From Leptogranulimonas caecicola (GTDB lineage: Bacteria; Actinomycetota; Coriobacteriia; Coriobacteriales; Atopobiaceae), in contig NZ_AP025285.1 of the NCBI RefSeq assembly GCF_023168405.1, forward strand, positions 1,424,001 to 1,488,000: a DNA stretch of 64,000 bases. The letters are read 5' to 3'. The notes under the pieces are model-generated. The model made no database searches, was not told the DNA's origin, and saw nothing but the letters and a program-made list of their open reading frames with translations. A program made the position numbers and the translations under genes. Below are positions 45,269-59,955 of the stretch, one piece after another (position 1 is the first letter of the stretch; each line of letters begins with the position of its first letter).

Positions 45269-46984
45269 CTACTTGCGCCGCTTTTTGTCGTGTTTGAGGA
45301 TATCGCGCACCATGTAGATCGAGAGGCCAATGGCCAAAAGGTAGCCCAAAAAGCCCAAAAGCGGCACACCCATGATGATGAATGAAGCGCCTGCAAAATA
45401 CACGATGGACGATCCAATGAGCAGGCCTGCGATAATAATGCCCATAGTAAGGCGGTCTGCGATGTGGGACAGGTCCTCAATGGGATCCTGGGAGCCCGAG
45501 AAGTCCAGGTTCATTTTGAGCTCGCCCCGGGTAAGCATGTCGGTCACAAGGCCGGCCTGAGACAGCGCCTCCAGCGTGCCATGGAGCGCCTTGCGGCTTT
45601 GCAAGGCCAGCTCTTTGAGCTCCTCTGCTGCCATCTGCTGGACATCTTGGGTATCTTTGAGGTGGTGCTCAATGATCTCGATCATCGAGACGCCTGGCAA
45701 GAACTCGTCGATGACACCTTCGAGGGTCACCAACCCTCGAGCAATCATGGTCATGGCACCCGGAAGCTCGATGGCATAGCGGCGCGCCAGTCCAATAAGG
45801 TCGCTTAGGAACGCCCCTAGATCCAAATCGCTCAAATCCATGGTGCCGTAGGTGTCCAAGATATTGTCCAGCTCGGCCAATAGGGCTGCATGGTCGATAT
45901 CCAAGCTGTGGTTTTCTGAGAGCTCGATCAGACCCCGCTCCAAGCTCGCAGAATCATGGGAAGCCACTGCCAGCAGCATGGAACGCAAAATGGAGCGGTA
46001 ATAGCTTGAGAGATGACCTGCCATGCCCCAGTCGATGAACACGATTTTCTTATGGGCCACCATTACATTGCCGGGATGGGGATCCGCATGGAAAAAGCCG
46101 TCATCCAGTACCTGCTTGGCGTAGTTGTCCACCAGCTTGGTGCCGATCTCTGTGAGGTCGTAGCCTGCAGAGACAATGGCACGGGGGTCGGAGATGGAGA
46201 TGCCATCGATATAGTCCATCACCAGCACATGCTGGGTACACAGCTCTGGATAGGGCTTGGGAGCAGTCACGTAGCGAATCTCCGCATTGTTGGACCGATA
46301 CTCCTGAAGGTTCTTAGCCTCCACCAAAAAGTCGGTCTCCTCGTTAAAGGAGTCCCAAAGCTCGCTCACCACGCTTTTGAGATCCACAAACTGATCGCCG
46401 CCCATAAAAGGCGACAGATGGCGCACCACCGTGCGCATGATTTCGATGTCCTGCCCCATGACTTCGCGCACGCGCGGACGCTGCACCTTGAGTGCCACAT
46501 CCTGACCGGTGGTCAGGCGCGCCCTGTGCACCTGGGCTATCGAGGCGGAGCCCAAGGGTTTCTCGTCAATGACTTCAAAAAGCTCTGCGACCGGCTTTTT
46601 GTACTCGTGCTCCAGCACCTCGAGCACCGTGGTGTAAGTCATGGGCTCCACGTCGGTGCGGAGCTTCTCAAGCTCCTTGCAAAAGGGCTCGGGCAAAATC
46701 TCCGAGCGCATAGAGAGGATCTGGCCCGCCTTCACAAAGGTGGGACCCAGATCCTCCAGCATAGACACGAATTTTTGGGGTGTAAGCCCCTTTACCACGT
46801 CGTACTTGCGCAAAATGCCAAAGATCTCCCGCAAGCGCTTGCGGCGGGCGCCTCTCGAAAGGTCGCCGGTGCTCACGGTCCTTTCGCCAAAAATGCCGAG
46901 AAGGACCTCCTGGGACCCGGTGGAATCTAGGTCTTGGGCCACCACACCTTCAGGCAACGAGATTTTGCGGGAGTCTTCAGCCAT
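45269..46984 (-). CDS. ABC1/UbiB-family atypical kinase
   Basis: 571 residues. UbiB signatures: TFVKAGQILSMR (KxGQ), PLGSASIAQVHRA (Ala-rich loop), VALKVQRP (Lys), FFHADPHPGNVMV and FIDWGMAGHL. Two hydrophobic segments at ~515-560 end in a basic tail KHDKKRRK, a membrane anchor. In proteobacteria UbiB supports quinone synthesis; in other lineages the role is a lipid- or quinone-related ATPase. The 27-base gap to the phasin-like gene upstream marks one operon, a pairing seen in many Gram-positive genomes. Confidence 0.9.
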   Translation of the reverse strand: MAEDSRKISLPEGVVAQDLDSTGSQEVLLGIFGERTVSTGDLSRGARRKRLREIFGILRKYDVVKGLTPQKFVSMLEDLGPTFVKAGQILSMRSEILPEPFCKELEKLRTDVEPMTYTTVLEVLEHEYKKPVAELFEVIDEKPLGSASIAQVHRARLTTGQDVALKVQRPRVREVMGQDIEIMRTVVRHLSPFMGGDQFVDLKSVVSELWDSFNEETDFLVEAKNLQEYRSNNAEIRYVTAPKPYPELCTQHVLVMDYIDGISISDPRAIVSAGYDLTEIGTKLVDNYAKQVLDDGFFHADPHPGNVMVAHKKIVFIDWGMAGHLSSYYRSILRSMLLAVASHDSASLERGLIELSENHSLDIDHAALLAELDNILDTYGTMDLSDLDLGAFLSDLIGLARRYAIELPGAMTMIARGLVTLEGVIDEFLPGVSMIEIIEHHLKDTQDVQQMAAEELKELALQSRKALHGTLEALSQAGLVTDMLTRGELKMNLDFSGSQDPIEDLSHIADRLTMGIIIAGLLIGSSIVYFAGASFIIMGVPLLGFLGYLLAIGLSIYMVRDILKHDKKRRK

Positions 46985-50857: not shown

Positions 50858-52102
50858 ATGGACATCCGACCCTTTGCCGCCATCCATCCCCGCCCAGACC
50901 TCATGGCCCAGGTAGCCGCCTTGCCCTACGACGTGGTGACCCCCCAGGAGGCCCGCGACGCCGTGGCCGCCCACCCCAAGAGCTTCTTGGCCATCGACCT
51001 GCCTGCAGAAACCGGGTTCCCAGCCGATAAGGACCCCTACGCACCTGAGGTCTACCAGCGGGCGCAGGAGCTTTTCTCGGCAGCCATGGAATCTGGCGAC
51101 TACGTCCAAGATGCCGAGCCCCACTACTACATCTACCAGCTGGAAGATGGCGAGCGCTCCCAGCGGGGCCTGGTGTGCGTGGTAGGTGTCGCCGACTACC
51201 TGGAAGATCGGGTGAAGCGCCACGAGAACACCCGGGTGGTCAAGGAGAACGACCGCATTGCCCACATCGAGGCCGTGGGCGCCCAAACAGGCCCGGTCTT
51301 TTTGGCCTATGACGACGAGCGCGAGGACGGCTCGCTGGAAGAGCTGTTGGATGCGGCCAGCGCAGGCGAGCCCTGGGCAGACTTCGTGGACGACGAGGGG
51401 GTGCGCAACCGCCTTTGGCGCGTGGACGATCCCTGGATGCTGGGACAGCTTTCTACGGCTGCCGGAGCGCTGGAGTGCGCCTATATCGCCGACGGGCATC
51501 ATCGCGGGGCCTCGGCAGTGAAGGTGGCCCAGCGCCACGCCGGCGACCCCGACGCCGCCGACGATGCCGATGCCTTCATAGCTGTGCTGTTCCCCGCCTC
51601 CGAGCTCTCCATCCTGGCGTACAACCGCGTGGTAGCCGACCGCGCCGGGCTCACCCCCGCCCAGCTGCTCGCTGCCGTCGAGGACGCCGGGTACACCCTA
51701 GAGCCGCGGGCTGAGGCGGCAAGTCCTTCTCGGCAGGGAAATTTCACCCTTTATACCGACGGCCACTGGTACGAGCTCTTCCCCACCCCTGAGCTTGTGG
51801 CGCGCCGCGGTGCGCTGGGGGCGGCGGATTCGTTGGATGTGGCTCGATTGCAGGCCGAGATTCTGGCGCCCATCCTGTCTATTGGCGACCCCCGAGAAGA
51901 CCCGCGCATCGAGTTTGTGGGAGGCATTCGGGGCTTGGGCGCACTGGAGGACGCCGCTGCCGAGAAGGGCGTGGCCATTGCCTGTTGGCCCACTTCAGTA
52001 GAGCAGCTCATGGCCGTCGCCGACGCCGGAGAGCTGATGCCTCCCAAGTCCACCTGGTTCGAGCCCAAGCTGCGAAGCGGACTGGTGTTCCACAAGATCT
52101 AA
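50858..52102 (+). CDS. DUF1015-family protein
   Basis: 414 residues, GGGAGG before the ATG. Family hallmarks: IRPFAAIHPRPDL, LPYDVVTPQEARD, HYYIYQLEDG, VKRHENTRVVKENDRIAH, AYIADGHHRGASAV. DUF1015 proteins frequently neighbour serA/serC in clostridia and relatives, which suggests a serine-related role, but the biochemical function is not established. Three copies of the TTCTCGGCAG word fall in this gene. Confidence 0.85.
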   Translation: MDIRPFAAIHPRPDLMAQVAALPYDVVTPQEARDAVAAHPKSFLAIDLPAETGFPADKDPYAPEVYQRAQELFSAAMESGDYVQDAEPHYYIYQLEDGERSQRGLVCVVGVADYLEDRVKRHENTRVVKENDRIAHIEAVGAQTGPVFLAYDDEREDGSLEELLDAASAGEPWADFVDDEGVRNRLWRVDDPWMLGQLSTAAGALECAYIADGHHRGASAVKVAQRHAGDPDAADDADAFIAVLFPASELSILAYNRVVADRAGLTPAQLLAAVEDAGYTLEPRAEAASPSRQGNFTLYTDGHWYELFPTPELVARRGALGAADSLDVARLQAEILAPILSIGDPREDPRIEFVGGIRGLGALEDAAAEKGVAIACWPTSVEQLMAVADAGELMPPKSTWFEPKLRSGLVFHKI

Positions 52103-52194
52103 CTCATGCGAAGGGGACCGCTGCGCCTGCGGCCCTTGCTGCTTTTGCCGCCCTTGCCTGTTCCCGGCATCAATCGTGAGACTAGGCGAAGGGA

Positions 52195-52328
52195 TTCTCG
52201 TTATTAGAGCCGTTTTTGCATGGTTTTGCCTAAGGGGCAGCAGGATATTGGCGCCTTCTCGTTATTAGTGCGTCTAGTTGCACTGGGGTTTTACAAGACC
52301 CCAGTGCAGAAATCGCGATAATAACGAG
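52195..52328 (+). repeat. Spaced-box repeat element, copy 1
   Basis: Layout: TTCTCGTTATTAGAGCC at 52195, TTGCATGGTT at 52216, second TTCTCGTTATTA at 52256, hairpin TGCACTGGGGT-n8-ACCCCAGTGCA at 52279-52308, inverted TAATAACGAG at 52319-52328. Copy 2 at 58823-58957 has the same boxes at nearly identical spacing with unrelated filler. Confidence 0.85.
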
Positions 52329-52390
52329 CCGGCTGCCAAAGCAGCATGCCGGCTGTCAAAGCGACCAGTCAATGTCACATGGCAGCCTTA

Positions 52391-52440
52391 TTTCTCAACG
52401 CCCACTACTCCCACATTTCTCAACGCCCACTACTCCCACA
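52391..52440 (+). repeat. 25-bp perfect tandem repeat
   Basis: Two identical 25-base units (starting TTTCTCAACGCCCACTACTC) with a few bases of a third. Length is suitable for strain-level variation. Confidence 0.92.
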
Positions 52441-52498
52441 TTCTCTGCGTTCTCTCAAACACTGTGGAACAAAGGAAAACCCAGCATGTGCTCTGCAT

Positions 52499-52536
52499 AA
52501 AAGCCCTCTTGGCCCGCCAGGGTCAAGAGGGCTTTT
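52499..52536. terminator. Bidirectional terminator between convergent genes
   Basis: Perfect 13-base stem AAAAGCCCTCTTG / CAAGAGGGCTTTT with 12-base loop; works in both directions, ending the surface-protein transcript on the minus strand. Confidence 0.88.
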
Positions 52537-52599
52537 AACGGTGCGAACGGTGCGAGCTTAGCGTCATTTCAAGCTCGACACCGCTCCCGTCTAGGGCAA

Positions 52600-55500
52600 C
52601 TAGGCGCGACGCCTACGCAGGTAAACCAGGGTAGTGGTGGCACCCGCAGCTAAAAGCACCAGCGCACCCCAGAAGACAGGTTCGTCGCCCATGCGGCCCA
52701 AGCGGCCGAAGCGCCCGTTCACCGGGTACACGATAGTGGCAGTGGCAGTAGCCTTGGCCTCGATCTCGGTGGCGGCAGCACCTTCACCGGGAGCAAGGGA
52801 GCCAGCTTCGCCCGAGCCCACCGCCGAGACGCTGTTGACGATCTTGCCAGGCATGGAGGGCTCGCGGATGGCAGCCTCGTAGGTCAAGGTCACCTGCTGA
52901 CCACCGGCAAGATCGCCCACCGGCACACGCAGGGTGTTGGTCGCGCGGTCAAACTCCACGTCGCTCATAGCCAGCGGCTCCGTAGTGCCGTCGGGAAGCA
53001 TGAGCTTGAGCGAAGAGGTATCCAGCTCGAGCCCATCACTCATGACGTCTACCAGTAGCGTGTCGAAGCTCATAGACATGTCCAGGGTATTTACTAGCTT
53101 GACGGTATAGCCCACCTTGTCACCCAGATACCACTCATCGGTATGAGTGAGGTTCTCGGCAGTCTTTTCGAGCGAGAGCTGAGGATCTGCCCACACCACC
53201 GGATGCGTGGAGTCCTGCTCGCCGGGGAACGCCTCTTGAGACTCAGTGCCACCGCGAGGAACAGGATCGGTCCAGGGGTCGCCGGGCTTCACCGTGTCAT
53301 TGGGTCCTACCAGCAAGTTTGTGCCCACCGCCACATTGGGGATCATGAGCCCGTGAGCTGCCTGGGTGACAGTGGCCTCAAAGGTGAGCTTTGCGACCTC
53401 GCCCTTCATGAGGGTGCCGCAGGTAACGCTCAAGGTGCGGGTCTCAGGGTCGTAGGCTTCAGGGGCTACCGAGAAGGGCTCGCCCTCCTTGATTTGGAGC
53501 TTGAGGGTGGAAAGGTCGATCTCGAGACCTTCGGGAAGGGTGTCGGTGATAAGGCCGTTCTCGATGGCGGAGTCATCCTTGGTGGTCTTGAGCTCGATGG
53601 CATAAGCCAGGCGGTCGCCCACGCGGGTAATGGGGGCACCGAGGGCCGTGAGGTTCTGTGCGTCCTTGATGATGGAGATGTCTGGCGACGCCCAGTGGAC
53701 GGCACCGTCGTCAGGCAGCACTACGTCGGTGGTGAGACCGCCGGTGGGGCCTGCAGGGACGTCAGGAAGATCGGGGTCATCGGGGTGGCTGGGATCTTCA
53801 GGCGTGCGAGTGCCGTCGGTGGTGCCCAACACGCTGGCGCTGTTTTGCACCGGGGTGCCCAAAGGCTGGTCCTGGAGAGCGTCGGTGGTAAGCGAAGCGT
53901 CGAACACCAAGGTTTTAGCGGTGCCAGGCGCCACGTCGCCCAAGCTGTAAGTCACACGACGAGTAGCAGCGTCATAGGCGCTGTCGGGTACCGCCAATGC
54001 AGTGCCGCCCTCCAAGTTGGCAAGATCGCGCACGATGAGCTTCATGGTTCCTGCCTGGGGCACCACACCCACCGGCAGAGGATCAGAAACCGTCACGTTT
54101 TGCCAGTTGGTGAGGCGGTTGTTTTGTGCGGTGATGTAGTAGCGCACCGTGTCGCCGATGCGGTTCACGCCGCGAGGATGGGTGAGGTTGCGCAGCACCT
54201 TGGTGATAAAGGTGTCACCCTCCTTGGAAGGATCGATGGTGGGGTCGTGCGTGGGGGTGACGTTGGGCGTATCCGGGTCTATCGGCTCGCTCTCAGGATC
54301 GACGGGCTTGTCGGGCGAATCTGGGTCGCTGGGGTTATCGGGATCGTCCGGGCCGCCAGGGTTGTCAGGATCGCTGGGATCGTCTGGGTTGTCAGGATTA
54401 TCCGGGTTTTCCGGGTCTGCGGGGCCGCTGGGCGTGTTGGAAGGCGCACCCTTGTGGGCAGAGGCTCCAAAGACGGGATAGACCGTGGTATAGCCCTGAG
54501 AGAGCACGTCGTTGGTGGTCAGGAGCACCGGGGCTTCCGGCGTAGTGGTCCACCCCAGGAAGGAGCGGTTGTGTTTCTCGGCAAGGGAAGTCGCCCAGGC
54601 GGCAGCCTCGTTCTCATTGAGCGATTCCAACGTGGAGAGCACCTTGGAGCCCGGCTGGGTGCCATTGTAGACAAAGGCCGCGATCCCATCGGGAAGCTCC
54701 TTGACCTTGAGGCCGGAGCCGGCGCGGGTCTTCTCGACCACTACTTTGACGGAGGCGTCGGCCTGGAGGTCGTTCAAGCTCACAGAGCCGGCGGTAAGGA
54801 GGTCGGGACGAGCCTGACCGTTCACAAAGACACCGGTGACGGTGAAGCCCTCCGGAACGTCCCAGGATACAGGGTAGTTTGAGCCCTTGGCCAGTGCGTT
54901 GGCGCTGGCGGTGATGGAGCCGGGGCCCTCGCTCACGATCTGAGTCTCAACGCGGCACGTGTCTTCTTGGTGGTCCTCGGGCTTGGTAGTGATGACATCG
55001 GCCTTCACGAATGTGGCATGGATGGTGTGATTGCGATCCACCTTATAGAAGGGATAGGAGCCCGTATCGTCGATAACCGCGTCAGGCTTGGGAGCCACAG
55101 GGTCCTCGCTGACAGCGGGATCGCCAGGGCCGTCGGCCAGAAGGGAGCTCAGGCACTCGGGCGAGGCCATCTTGAGCATGGAACGCAGCAGGTTCTGGCT
55201 CTGTGAGACGTCGGTCTCCTTGGTGGACAGGCGATCGGCCAGGGAGCGCTCGGGATAGAAGGAACGAACCGTGTCGATGGTCACGCCTTGGAGCATCCAG
55301 CCTTCGGCAGGTTCCCACTCCACGGGGTAATCGCTGCCGCGCTTGACGATGGCCGAGGGCGTGATGGTCCCCTGGCCTGTCACCCGGGTGTCGATGGAAA
55401 TCTGCTCCTCCTCGGAAAGGGTGACGTTTCCCGCTTGATCCTTGGGCGTGAGCTTGACCTCCACCGTACAGTCCTTGGAGCCGGCAGGCAGCTCGATAGC

Positions 55501-58236
55501 CACCGAACCGTCATCTTGCACCGTGATGCTTGTGGGGTTCACCTTGGCGCCGTCGGCGTCGGTGACGGTGATGTTTTCTTGTTTGATGTCATAGGATGAG
55601 GCGTACTCAGGGTCGATGGCTGCGGTGACCGTGGTGCCCTCGCCATCAGCGACGCGCACCGTGGGGCTCACCGTACCAGGACCTCCTGTGAGGCGTGTGG
55701 CCACCTGGTGATCTCCCTCCGAGCTGGAAGTGCCCGTTGGCTTGAGCTTCACCTCGACCTCGTGGTCGCGGTCCACCTGGGAGAAGGTGACCGAGGTTGC
55801 CCCTGCCGCTACCAGATCCGGGCGCTCCACGCCATCGATGTAGATCATCTCCAGCTCACGGGTGGAATCGAGCTTCCACTCCACCTTATAGTTGGATGCC
55901 CCGCTGTCGTCGGTGGCCACAATGGTGGACTTGGTGATGGTGGAGCTGCCTGCATCGCCGGTAAGCTTGGTGGCCACCTGAGCGTAGTCCACAGGATCCA
56001 CCGGTGCCGACAAGTACTCCACCACCACATGATGGCTTGCCTCCAGCGCCCCAAGGTTCAGGGTGCCTCCGGCATATCGTGCTGGGTCCAGCAGCTCGTC
56101 GTCCAGCCAGACAGCACCGATTGAGCCGCCCTCGGCTGCCTTGAGGTTCACCGAGAGCTTGGTGCCCGTGTCATAGGTATGGGCCTGGCTGTCGATAGGC
56201 GCAGGGTCTTGGCCCTCCACCTGGATGCTGGTGGTGCCGTTGCCCTTTTGGCTCACCAAGAGATCCCAAGTCTTCACCCACTTGGCGTAGACGTGGAAGG
56301 GCTCTTTGGTGTCTGCGCCAGAAGGCGGGTAGGTTCCCTCAGGCACAATCTTCTCTCCGGTACCTGCGTTGTTAAGGTACCAGCCGTCAAAGCGGTAACC
56401 CTCGCGCACGGGGTCGTCGGGGTAACTGGCAATGATGTGGTTGTTGGTAAAGAGGGACTGGGCCTCGTCATCAGCGGTCGCCGGCTCGGAGGTCCCGTCC
56501 TCGTTGCGATGGAAGTGGGCTCGACGTTCCAACACCTGGATGGGCACCACCATGTCGCCACTCACGTTACCTGCCCAATCAACGGCATAGACATGGGCGT
56601 AGTACTGAGTATCCAGATTCAGGTTCTGAGCCGAGGTATAGGTCACCGTGTCGGTGCTATTGGAAGCAGAAATGATCTGAGAGGCGTTCACCTGGGACTT
56701 GGTGATAGCCTCAGGATCCTTGTTTGTGTCCACTGCCCGCACATAGTAACCACGCAGACCAGAGAGGGCTGTCTGCACCAGGGAGGCGGTTTTATCGGCA
56801 GGGGCGTCATCGAGGGTCTCAGGATCGCTCCACACCTCCACATACTCGGGGGCGTTTTGCAAGGTTGCCTGGGGAATGCCCTGGATCTTGTAGGCAAACT
56901 GGGTGCCCGCATCCACCGAGCCGCGCAAATTGAGCGTGGCCGAGTAGTGCCACCCATCGGGAGTGAGATTCACTCGGCGCAGGGAGGCGTTGGCGGCAGA
57001 GGGAGCGTCCTCATCGGCAAAGGAGAGGTCGGAGCCAGAGGTGTAGCGCGAGCCCTGGGCGATGTAGAGCAGTGTGTTGGCGAAGACCTTGCACTCGTCT
57101 TCTGTAGCCGATCCGTTGGAATGGCCGGTTTGGATCATGGCGTTTGAGCCATTGGTGACCAGATAGTAGTTGTCGGTGCCATTGCCCTGCGTGAAACGGA
57201 TCCCCTGCACATTGCCTGCGCCATCGCTCATCTGCATCCACACGCGAGCATTGGAGCCGGCCAGCACCCTTTGCCCCAACACATGGGTGGTGGGAATGGA
57301 AAGCGTTTTGCCGTTGAGGTCCCAGGGACGCGAGGTCAAAAAGCCCGTGTCGATGACCTTGCAGTTGTTGAGCATGTAGGTGGTGCCGCCCTGCCCGGGG
57401 AAGATATCCAGGAAATCCTCGCGGGCGAAGCGGTTGAAGTAGGGGTGGTGCAGTTGCTTGGAAGCGTTGTCGGCATAGGGATCGGAGGTAGATGAGGATG
57501 AGCCGGTGATGGTGTCGTGGCCAAACATGAGGCCGCCGCCATGCTTGGCAAAAGCCACAGTGGCATCGCGGGAGGCAGCATTGAGGTCGCCGCCGGCGTT
57601 GGCATCGTAAGTGCCAAACATGATGACGTCGTACTTGTACTGCTGAATGTCGTTTCCTTGGGCATCCTTCACGGTTTCCATGAGATAGCCGTTGGGGTTG
57701 GCGTTGTAGTCGGCCAAGGTGATGGCCGTGATGTCCATAAGGTCGCGGCCCACCGTCACGCGCTGGCCAGTGGTGGGATCTGTGGTAGGAGTGTTCATCC
57801 AGTTTTTGAGATAAGCCGTAGAGGCGCCGTTGGGCGCCACATTGAGCACGCGGATCTTGTTGGAATCGCTGTAGGCGCTTCTGGATTCCCAGGCGCTCCA
57901 GGCATTGGAGCTGGTAGCCTTCTTCGACTGCCAGATGATGTATTTGTAGGGGCGGCCAGGGTCTGCGATGCCCTCGCCCGGGCGCAGCGGATTCTCAAAG
58001 GGGAAGGTCCACTTGAGGTCTTGGACCAGCTGCTTGTCCGAGGCTACGGTCACCTTGCCCGAAACCTTGATGTGGCCTTCTTTAAACTGAAGATCATCGC
58101 TGTCCGCTTGCGCAGAGACGCTTCTGGCGCCATTCTCCGCCAACGCCGGCTGCGGCGCCACAGGCACCAGAGTGAGCGCCATCACAAAGGAGAGCAGCCA
58201 GGCAAAGATCTTCGTCGCCAGTCCCTTGCGTTTCAT
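52600..58236 (-). CDS. Giant secreted surface protein, multi-domain adhesin-like
   Basis: 1878 residues, GGAGG before ATG 58236. Signal peptide ~1-33 (MKRKGLATKIFAWLLSFVMA ... ALAENG). Then a region resembling DUF5057 (~95-420), beta-rich segment, an InlB-type B repeat (~570-655, YRFDGWYLNN, VYAKWVKTW), several repeats of ~90-100 residues with 'G-x-G-T-I-x-P/S' pattern, a Pro-Asp-Asn linker (~1265-1322), three DUF11-like beta repeats (~1340, ~1517, ~1682), and a C-terminal hydrophobic anchor (~1850-1873) with RRRR tail. No LPxTG: LGRMGDEP precedes the anchor, so a variant sorting signal or simple membrane anchor. Likely a host-surface binding protein. Confidence 0.88.
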   Translation of the reverse strand: MKRKGLATKIFAWLLSFVMALTLVPVAPQPALAENGARSVSAQADSDDLQFKEGHIKVSGKVTVASDKQLVQDLKWTFPFENPLRPGEGIADPGRPYKYIIWQSKKATSSNAWSAWESRSAYSDSNKIRVLNVAPNGASTAYLKNWMNTPTTDPTTGQRVTVGRDLMDITAITLADYNANPNGYLMETVKDAQGNDIQQYKYDVIMFGTYDANAGGDLNAASRDATVAFAKHGGGLMFGHDTITGSSSSTSDPYADNASKQLHHPYFNRFAREDFLDIFPGQGGTTYMLNNCKVIDTGFLTSRPWDLNGKTLSIPTTHVLGQRVLAGSNARVWMQMSDGAGNVQGIRFTQGNGTDNYYLVTNGSNAMIQTGHSNGSATEDECKVFANTLLYIAQGSRYTSGSDLSFADEDAPSAANASLRRVNLTPDGWHYSATLNLRGSVDAGTQFAYKIQGIPQATLQNAPEYVEVWSDPETLDDAPADKTASLVQTALSGLRGYYVRAVDTNKDPEAITKSQVNASQIISASNSTDTVTYTSAQNLNLDTQYYAHVYAVDWAGNVSGDMVVPIQVLERRAHFHRNEDGTSEPATADDEAQSLFTNNHIIASYPDDPVREGYRFDGWYLNNAGTGEKIVPEGTYPPSGADTKEPFHVYAKWVKTWDLLVSQKGNGTTSIQVEGQDPAPIDSQAHTYDTGTKLSVNLKAAEGGSIGAVWLDDELLDPARYAGGTLNLGALEASHHVVVEYLSAPVDPVDYAQVATKLTGDAGSSTITKSTIVATDDSGASNYKVEWKLDSTRELEMIYIDGVERPDLVAAGATSVTFSQVDRDHEVEVKLKPTGTSSSEGDHQVATRLTGGPGTVSPTVRVADGEGTTVTAAIDPEYASSYDIKQENITVTDADGAKVNPTSITVQDDGSVAIELPAGSKDCTVEVKLTPKDQAGNVTLSEEEQISIDTRVTGQGTITPSAIVKRGSDYPVEWEPAEGWMLQGVTIDTVRSFYPERSLADRLSTKETDVSQSQNLLRSMLKMASPECLSSLLADGPGDPAVSEDPVAPKPDAVIDDTGSYPFYKVDRNHTIHATFVKADVITTKPEDHQEDTCRVETQIVSEGPGSITASANALAKGSNYPVSWDVPEGFTVTGVFVNGQARPDLLTAGSVSLNDLQADASVKVVVEKTRAGSGLKVKELPDGIAAFVYNGTQPGSKVLSTLESLNENEAAAWATSLAEKHNRSFLGWTTTPEAPVLLTTNDVLSQGYTTVYPVFGASAHKGAPSNTPSGPADPENPDNPDNPDDPSDPDNPGGPDDPDNPSDPDSPDKPVDPESEPIDPDTPNVTPTHDPTIDPSKEGDTFITKVLRNLTHPRGVNRIGDTVRYYITAQNNRLTNWQNVTVSDPLPVGVVPQAGTMKLIVRDLANLEGGTALAVPDSAYDAATRRVTYSLGDVAPGTAKTLVFDASLTTDALQDQPLGTPVQNSASVLGTTDGTRTPEDPSHPDDPDLPDVPAGPTGGLTTDVVLPDDGAVHWASPDISIIKDAQNLTALGAPITRVGDRLAYAIELKTTKDDSAIENGLITDTLPEGLEIDLSTLKLQIKEGEPFSVAPEAYDPETRTLSVTCGTLMKGEVAKLTFEATVTQAAHGLMIPNVAVGTNLLVGPNDTVKPGDPWTDPVPRGGTESQEAFPGEQDSTHPVVWADPQLSLEKTAENLTHTDEWYLGDKVGYTVKLVNTLDMSMSFDTLLVDVMSDGLELDTSSLKLMLPDGTTEPLAMSDVEFDRATNTLRVPVGDLAGGQQVTLTYEAAIREPSMPGKIVNSVSAVGSGEAGSLAPGEGAAATEIEAKATATATIVYPVNGRFGRLGRMGDEPVFWGALVLLAAGATTTLVYLRRRRA

Positions 58237-58822
58237 TTCTACCTCCGTAGATGTATATAGCCCGTTTATAGCTGCGTTTCAGCATACTTATACCTTAATA
58301 TATGGCTATCGATATCTTTGGGGCAATAATTAAACTTCGCACTATTGCGCAACATTTTCTTTTTGTGACGGTTGAGCCTAGCGGCTTTGCTGGTCTAAAG
58401 CATGATTATTCCATGTTTACCTTGTGATGCATCAAGATTTTTTGGGGACATCTTGGCTTTCGACTGGTCCTATTACACCTGCTTTTCAAGTAGCGCCCTT
58501 GGACATTAGGACACTGTTTGCCAGTCTTCATTCATAGAATTATGAAATTGTATTTCATCATATTTTGAATTTTATGACGTATTATTGTGACACCTGTTAC
58601 GTATATTTTTCCTAAATTGTACAGTTATTTAGTATATAGGGCCAATGGTGGCCTTTTTGGTACCTGCACCGCTTTTTGAAAAGCTTCCTCACGTGCTGGC
58701 CGCAGGTCTTTCTGCGGAGTCACTTGCTCACAAAGCGAGTCACTTGCTCACAGCGCTTATGAGCATGCTGGATCCTCAGCCACCACCTCACTGTGGCCGC
58801 TCGCAGCCTAGTCCGCCCATGA
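58237..58822. other. Long AT-rich upstream region of the surface-protein gene
   Basis: About 400 bases (58250-58650) are far more AT-rich than the rest of the window and contain no gene. Included are the palindrome ATGAAAT-TGT-ATTTCAT (58542-58558) and several TATA-like boxes on the minus strand. This looks like an extended promoter/regulatory region or acquired DNA. Confidence 0.6.
58717..58752 (+). repeat. 16-bp tandem repeat, 20-bp period
   Basis: GAGTCACTTGCTCACA occurs at 58717-58732 and 58737-58752. Confidence 0.9.
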
Positions 58823-58957
58823 TTCTCGTTATTAGAGCCTCTCTTGCATGGTTCTAGCCCGAAAAACAACGCGTAACATGAGTTTCTCGTTATTACCACC
58901 CTCGACTGCACTGGGGTTTTATAAAACCCCAGTGCACCTAACTCCACTAATAACGAG
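58823..58957 (+). repeat. Spaced-box repeat element, copy 2
   Basis: Same layout as copy 1: TTCTCGTTATTAGAGCC at 58823, TTGCATGGTT at 58844, TTCTCGTTATTA at 58884, hairpin TGCACTGGGGTTTT-ata-AAACCCCAGTGCA at 58907-58936, TAATAACGAG at 58948-58957. It is in the same orientation as copy 1, on the other side of the surface-protein gene. Confidence 0.85.
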
Positions 58958-59052
58958 TCCCTATGCCCTGCTCGCGCGGAAAGCGCGCGAGCAAGACGGA
59001 CGAACACACATGCACAAGCGCCTCCGCCAACCCCCATGGGAATCGCCAAGCC

Positions 59053-59955
59053 TTACAACCCCTTGAGCTCTGCAATGGCGTGCCGCGTCTCTTCCAGCAA
59101 CGCCGCATGGGCAGCCGCATCGCCTGGAGTGCCAGGGCACTCTGGCAAGTCGCTCTCCAGCAGCAGCTGCGCTGCGGGAATCTGGCGAGCGTACTCCCTG
59201 CCTCGACGGCTCTTGAGCATGAAAGGCCCCACCGAGAAAAAGCACCCTGCCTCCCGGGCCCTCGCCAGCTCTTTGGAAGTGCCGCTAAACCAGTGGAAGA
59301 TGCAGGTGCAGTCGGCCAGGCGGCCGCTGGCCTCCAGCACATCGAGCACCGCAGATGCCGAGTGCACGCTGTGGATCGACATCACCGAGCCCGGCTGCAC
59401 CGCCTCGCACACCCGGGCAAAAGCCGCCCGCTGCCGCTCCGCGCTCTCCCGGTGCGCCTTGCCAAAGTCCAGCCCCACCTCGCCAATAAAGCGCGTCTCT
59501 TGCGCCAGCTGGCAAAAGGCATCCAGCTTGCGCAGCAAGACCAGCTTCTCCCCCATATACCAGGGATGCAGCCCCAGGGCCGGATGCACCCGCTCGACGC
59601 CGGCCACCAGCGGCGTCAGCATCTCATAGCCGCAAGGCTCCACCGTGCAGCCCAAGCAGCCCGCACCGCGCGCACTCAACCCCCGGGCGAATGCCCCAGG
59701 ATCGCCATACCAATCCAGATGCAGGTGCATGTCCACAAGAGGCGCGGCGTTATGCAAAGAAGCATCTTGGCTGCCTTGCCGAGAAACCCCCGCCTCGGCA
59801 GCTGCTCCATATTGCTGAGACGCGCCCTTCTCGGCAGCAGGGGCGCAAAAGGGGCGCGCGGCCAGCGCAAAGACGCGGGCCGGCGAGGCAGGCACAGAGG
59901 GCGATGCGGGCGAGGCATAGCTGGGTTTTGTGAGACGGGCGGCTCGCATATTCAT
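59053..59955 (-). CDS. TatD-family metal-dependent hydrolase
   Basis: 300 residues from ATG 59955, whose ATGA overlaps the tcdA stop. Catalytic barrel from residue ~70: VDMHLHLDWYG (HxH), HPALGLHPWY, RFIGEVGLDFGKAH (Glu), SIHSVHSASAV, CIFHWFSGT and LLLESDLPE (Asp). TatD proteins are 3'-5' exonucleases or deoxyribonucleases. The first ~70 residues are an Ala/Pro/Ser-rich extension lacking in usual TatD proteins; two copies of the TTCTCGGCAG word in opposite orientation lie in it, so it may be disordered. Confidence 0.85.
   Translation of the reverse strand: MNMRAARLTKPSYASPASPSVPASPARVFALAARPFCAPAAEKGASQQYGAAAEAGVSRQGSQDASLHNAAPLVDMHLHLDWYGDPGAFARGLSARGAGCLGCTVEPCGYEMLTPLVAGVERVHPALGLHPWYMGEKLVLLRKLDAFCQLAQETRFIGEVGLDFGKAHRESAERQRAAFARVCEAVQPGSVMSIHSVHSASAVLDVLEASGRLADCTCIFHWFSGTSKELARAREAGCFFSVGPFMLKSRRGREYARQIPAAQLLLESDLPECPGTPGDAAAHAALLEETRHAIAELKGL

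Follow-up and report, generated by a model that had tools for sequence, protein, structure and literature searches.

The window analysed here, a stretch of 64,000 nucleotides from the genome of Leptogranulimonas caecicola, carries on its minus strand an open reading frame (52600-58236) that starts with ATG and codes for a protein of 1,878 residues. The features of this gene and its surroundings are given below in window coordinates, together with the one relevant enzyme encoded elsewhere on the contig.

52600..58236, minus strand: surface-protein gene, 1,878 residues (open reading frame; 95% identical copy in Olsenella sp. KGMB02461, 38% identical homolog in Bittarella massiliensis)
58138..58236, minus strand: signal-peptide-like N terminus, about residues 1-33 (sequence judged by eye)
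56956..58236, minus strand: N-terminal region, residues 1-427, 48% identical with the Bittarella homolog and of no known family (homolog alignment, Pfam and PDB searches)
56278..56412, minus strand: InlB-type (List_Bact_rpt) repeat, residues 609-653 (TIGR02543, 23 bits, cut-off 20.95)
54247..54453, minus strand: Pro-Asp linker, about residues 1262-1330 (translated sequence)
52825..54162, minus strand: three DUF11 / isopeptide-forming fimbrial-type domains, residues about 1359-1804 (Pfam and NCBIfam matches)
52684..52701, minus strand: putative variant sorting motif LGRMGD, residues 1846-1851 (sequence, aligned with sibling signals)
52603..52683, minus strand: hydrophobic segment and RRRRA tail, residues 1852-1878 (sequence; last 39 codons without replacement differences against the sister species)
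58237..58700, no strand assigned: AT-rich upstream region (200-base GC intervals)
Contig position 45768-46571, outside the window: class-B-like sortase (PF04203)

A sequence-only reading of the window had described a giant surface protein with a signal peptide, InlB-like and DUF11-like repeats, a Pro-Asp linker and a hydrophobic C terminus with a basic tail preceded by LGRMGDEP, and this anatomy is borne out in all its parts. The N terminus, MKRKGLATKIFAWLLSFVMALTLVPVAPQPALA, has the look of a signal peptide, and downstream of it the InlB-type repeat is recovered by TIGR02543, while the Pfam Flg_new model reaches 24.7 bits, just short of its cut-off of 27. Three stretches of the protein match DUF11 (47 bits, cut-off 24.6) as well as the isopeptide-forming fimbrial domain TIGR04226 (67 bits, cut-off 30), and GramPos_pilinBB also matches; as TIGR04226 outscores DUF11 on the same domains, we regard the DUF11 part as pilin-like. 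The protein ends in NGRFGRLGRMGDEPVFWGALVLLAAGATTTLVYLRRRRA, in which LGRMGDE occupies residues 1846-1852 and the GD is followed by 27 residues comprising the hydrophobic segment and the terminal RRRRA. The AT-richness claimed for the upstream region likewise holds, with a GC content of 0.355-0.42 in 200-base intervals across 58200-58699 against 0.55-0.605 in those across 57500-58299. Over 52000-59100, promoter-like matches (2, shuffle mean 2.0) and terminator-like matches (6, shuffle mean 6.0) showed no excess.

Fibrillar adhesins combine a stalk with an adhesive N-terminal domain. The focal protein resembles them in its stalk of repeat and isopeptide-type domains, its linker and its wall or membrane anchor, but differs in that its N-terminal region matches nothing in Pfam or the PDB, and an adhesive role for this region is only putative. 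A Pfam search assigned it to no family, and a PDB profile search with an alignment of residues 1-427 from three sequences gave zero matches at E<=1; an AlphaFold model built from the same three sequences had a mean pLDDT of 33 and was discarded. Its identity to the Bittarella homolog (48%, against 38% for the whole protein) marks it as a candidate new surface domain.

Of the named relatives Olsenella sp. KGMB02461 stands nearest, with a copy of the protein that is 95% identical over its whole length. Two of 140 genomes of the family have the protein in full length, the focal genome and the sister genome G028, and further matches, in G018 and to paralogs, are confined to the DUF11 part. A homolog from Bittarella massiliensis, which we take to belong to another phylum, aligns with focal residues 1-1859 (locus L034:4229-9979); its full-length presence there, set against near-absence from the Olsenella family, may point to horizontal transfer.

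Sorting signals of the genome and its single sortase

Pattern and profile searches of the genome, followed by reading of the translated C termini, yielded 15 signals including the focal one, and the other 14 belong to sibling surface proteins of the same anatomy. These searches required or favoured GD, and signals of other form may have been overlooked. The signals are MPATGD (two), LPATGD, IPATGD, LPKTGD (two), MPKTGD, IPKTGD, IPRTGD (two), IAKTGD, IVPTGD (two), APKMGD and the focal LGRMGD. At position 4 thirteen have Thr and two Met; position 2 is Pro in eleven, Val in two, Ala in one and Gly in the focal signal, and G and D are invariant in the 12 that were aligned. The comparison of C termini that the sequence-only reading had called for, with a shared MGDE-like motif in mind, thus recovered a common GD-containing signal and one further MGD protein, but 13 of the 15 signals carry TGD.

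At the DNA level, the pattern AYN-GGN-GAY gave 48 matches (143 in the control), and reading of 17 stretches showed C-terminal signals in 11 and none in the other six (L062, L063, L066-L069). A broader GGN-GAY pattern, with 288 matches against 783 in its reversed control and its displayed matches confined to part of the plus strand, supplied leads only. The own-genome profile returned 21 matches at E<=10, 15 of them accepted after reading, 12 of which are in the profile by construction; those at 1906333, 428899, 1578995, 302204, 1076793 and 1659064 were dropped. One of these (L091, C1, about 428890-428990, outside the window) is an orphan stop-to-stop frame of 48 residues whose tail, PKLGDDDG...HHRQ, resembles a signal. 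It may be what is left of a lost surface-protein gene, and the locus holds no sortase to match.

At E<=1 the LPXTG model TIGR01167 finds 10 of the 12 aligned signals, whereas TIGR03063 (srtB_target), a domain of class B sortase substrates, finds four, those displayed falling below its cut-off. The focal signal is matched by neither model at E<=1, and LPXTG families are absent from the NCBIfam matches of the whole protein at E<=10. It shares with the LPXTG signal (TIGR01167 / PF00746) its C-terminal site and the order of motif, hydrophobic segment and basic tail, but LGRMG departs from the L-P-x-T-G pentapeptide in having Met where Thr is expected and Gly where Pro is, and no other confirmed signal combines both changes.

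A search with PF04203 over the genome, a single contig of 2,001,235 bases, found one sortase, in which His142, Cys239 and Arg245 or 247 can be read as the active-site residues. Its best family is class B (TIGR03064), at 127.9 bits and thus below the equivalog cut-off of 153.75, and among solved chains those of SrtB come nearest. The available part of one report (PMC4155245) describes the single sortase of Clostridioides difficile, SrtB, as cleaving (S/P)PXTG between Thr and Gly, and gives SDSPKTGDN as one kinetic substrate. As far as that part goes, this is the closest described system: it has in common with the present genome a single class-B-type sortase and, in SDSPKTGDN, GD after Thr, and it differs in the first position, which is S/P there and mostly L/M/I here. 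The same part of the report makes no mention of Met at the cleavage residue.

Exchange of threonine and methionine at position 4

Sortase substrates are usually found by way of the LPxTG motif, and the Thr at its fourth position is treated as nearly fixed. The second Met signal of the genome bears directly on this assumption: the protein ending in APKMGDASIA has an ortholog in G028 with VPKTGDVSIV at that place, and the two agree in 94% of 2,411 aligned residues. Under TIGR01167 (cut-off 15.9) APKMGD scores 14.0 and fails, and the Thr ortholog scores 20.2 and passes.

The same exchange is seen in other genera. In genus g15, proteins with PYMGD (G024, G025, G026) are some 37-38% identical to proteins with PYTGD (G023, G027) over about 500 residues. 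Across eight genomes of two genera other than the focal one (G001-G003, G023-G027), 86 rows of PxxGD matches were parsed, and 72 passed a hydrophobicity filter while 14 failed; among these 72 listed sites the residue before GD is Thr in 56, Met in 11, and N, E, S, A and P in one each. As several signals are common to G025 and G026, the 11 Met sites collapse by eye to about six distinct groups. Sites from G000 (9 of 30 matches) and G028 (12 of 36) were picked by eye and stand outside the 72-site ratio. On reading, nine of 14 Met sites from other genomes proved to be C-terminal signals and five (L152, L159, L160, L164, L165) did not, among them GRMGDF of G024, a seeming match to the focal GRMGDE.

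On the strength of the APKMGD/VPKTGD pair, the PYMGD and PYTGD proteins of g15 and the 11 of 72 sites, we take Met to be a true natural alternative to Thr in the signal, and signals with Met at the cleavage residue very likely form a variant class. The sequence-only reading had held that standard signals elsewhere in the genome, coupled with a C terminus behaving as a membrane anchor, would speak against a variant motif. The first half of this applies, with TGD in 13 of 15 signals, but it does not refute the variant; since one position accommodates either Met or Thr, the TGD signals rather help that reading. LPXTG motifs are recorded for the Coriobacteriales in the available part of one paper (PMC5817068). 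A literature search for LPXMG, LPKMG or LPXMGD signals found no report, which is weak evidence of absence as subscription journals were largely uncovered, and among the papers listed for Olsenella sortases there is apparently none on Olsenella sorting signals.

The company kept by Met signals varies between genomes. G024, like the focal genome, has one PF04203 match and carries a Met signal. G048 and G050 have several sortases, and their Met signals lie in pilus-like loci (L161, L162) in which proteins with LPLTGQ and LPNAGQ stand beside one with PKMGD or PDMGD. A sortase of a different kind, with a strong score, is also present there, and its position and score lead us to read it as a class C pilus sortase. 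The Met signal is found on one subunit only. Going by pili in general, the subunit that stands apart would be the base subunit, passed to the housekeeping sortase, and we infer this role for the Met-signal protein of both loci.

These loci, together with the three TIGR04226 domains and the GramPos_pilinBB match, raise the prospect that the focal protein is itself built into a pilus, with a pilin sortase linking the subunits and the fimbrial domains forming the fibre. We deem this most improbable, as the genome has no second sortase and its only one is class-B-like rather than class C.

A candidate variant signal on the focal protein

To gauge the focal signal against unrelated sequences, a profile was built from 31 Thr signals of other genera, with no own-genus or Met signals included, and run over 3,270 C termini, these being stop-terminated frames, mostly non-genes, from the loci of the focal and sister genomes and from the window. 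The focal C terminus reached 8.3 bits, above all decoys (C termini lacking a recognised signal), but by just 0.4 bit over the best of them, which scored 7.9. It is nevertheless the lowest scorer among the signals of its own genome, where APKMGD reaches 13.4 bits and the Thr signals range from 11.6 to 37.3. Its 55.4 bits under the own-genome profile (A1) come from a profile that itself contains it, and the 39-residue tail as a protein query against the genome finds only itself.

The end of the gene appears to be well kept. Over its last 39 codons the two species differ by nine silent changes and not a single replacement, against a pS of 0.192 and a pN of 0.023 for the whole gene. This pattern fits constraint, though the stretch is short and the counts are small: even at the pN of 0.051 seen for residues 1661-1835, only about four replacements would be expected there. 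The Bittarella homolog ends in GVYTGDD and a hydrophobic segment, keeping Thr but missing Pro two residues earlier. The other four Bittarella signals that were read are TPITGD, SPYTGD and SPTTGE, with Pro at that place, and LPTETGD.

We propose that the focal C terminus is probably a sorting signal of the sortase B type whose cleavage residue is Met, by which the class-B-like sortase would anchor the protein to the wall. It would follow the pattern general to the genome, in which [LMIV]PxTGD precedes a hydrophobic segment and a basic tail, except that Met replaces Thr and Gly replaces Pro. The xMGDE variant offered as one option by the sequence-only reading gains support from the GD-containing siblings, the second MGD signal, the TGD ortholog and MGD in other genera, but the focal copy is the weakest of the set and lacks Pro. 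The recurrence of the Thr-to-Met change in related bacteria suggests that the focal tag is probably real and missed by standard annotation.

With Pro missing and no weaker signal in the genome, the main rival view stays live: that this is a degenerate former sorting signal, no longer recognised by sortase, whose hydrophobic segment and RRRR tail do no more than fix the C terminus in the membrane. The absence of Pro as well as Thr, a score that is the lowest in the genome and barely over the decoys and the failure of the LPXTG model would all agree with such a loss of function; with Pro missing in the Bittarella homolog too, the protein family could be drifting from sortase dependence. Yet GD, spacing and tail are retained, the last codons are free of replacements, Met alone is tolerated elsewhere, and three Thr signals of the same genome (IAKTGD and both IVPTGD) also do without Pro. 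We hold a plain membrane anchor to be rather unlikely, and wall anchoring of the focal protein itself to have the better part of the probability.

A second dedicated transpeptidase beyond PF04203, be it a sortase that has diverged or part of an exosortase- or rhombosortase-like system, might instead read the signal. The focal tail has weak, sub-cut-off matches to the MYXO-CTERM, Heimdall-CTERM and Loki-CTERM models, and in the sister genome an LPRLGD protein lies next to a second class-B-like sortase. However, the CTERM matches do not extend beyond the hydrophobic segment and basic tail, and similar models are matched by Thr siblings; moreover, PF04203 detects one sortase in the genome, and the exchange of APKMGD with Thr in its ortholog argues for one enzyme serving both. 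We consider such an enzyme very unlikely.

Returning to the sortase-B-type signal, we posit that the focal protein, once exported, would be retained by its hydrophobic segment and Arg tail in the membrane, where the single class-B-like sortase would attack the Met-Gly bond with formation of a thioester, and the product ending at Met1849 would be transferred to a peptidoglycan precursor. The fimbrial-type stalk and Pro-Asp linker would then keep the N-terminal region off the wall. A broader proposition, which we regard as evenly balanced, is that the family's class-B-like housekeeping sortase has a relaxed pocket before the cleaved bond and recognises a [T/M]GD core for which Pro is helpful and not essential, with Met signals as a stable substrate class missed by LPXTG models and a Leu version in LPRLGD of G028.

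If Met is naturally accepted, surface-protein inventories of Olsenella-family bacteria are incomplete, and an enzyme with a broader choice of residue at the cleaved bond could be useful for protein ligation. The sister-species pair, with Met against Thr in proteins 94% identical, amounts to a natural experiment by which the question is directly testable.

The LPRLGD of G028, with Leu at position 4, lies in a frame of 237 residues that has a pilin isopeptide-linkage-like domain just under cut-off and is directly preceded by the second class-B-like sortase of that genome (L170, G028:C12:6900-8700); the two look like a dedicated enzyme-substrate pair.
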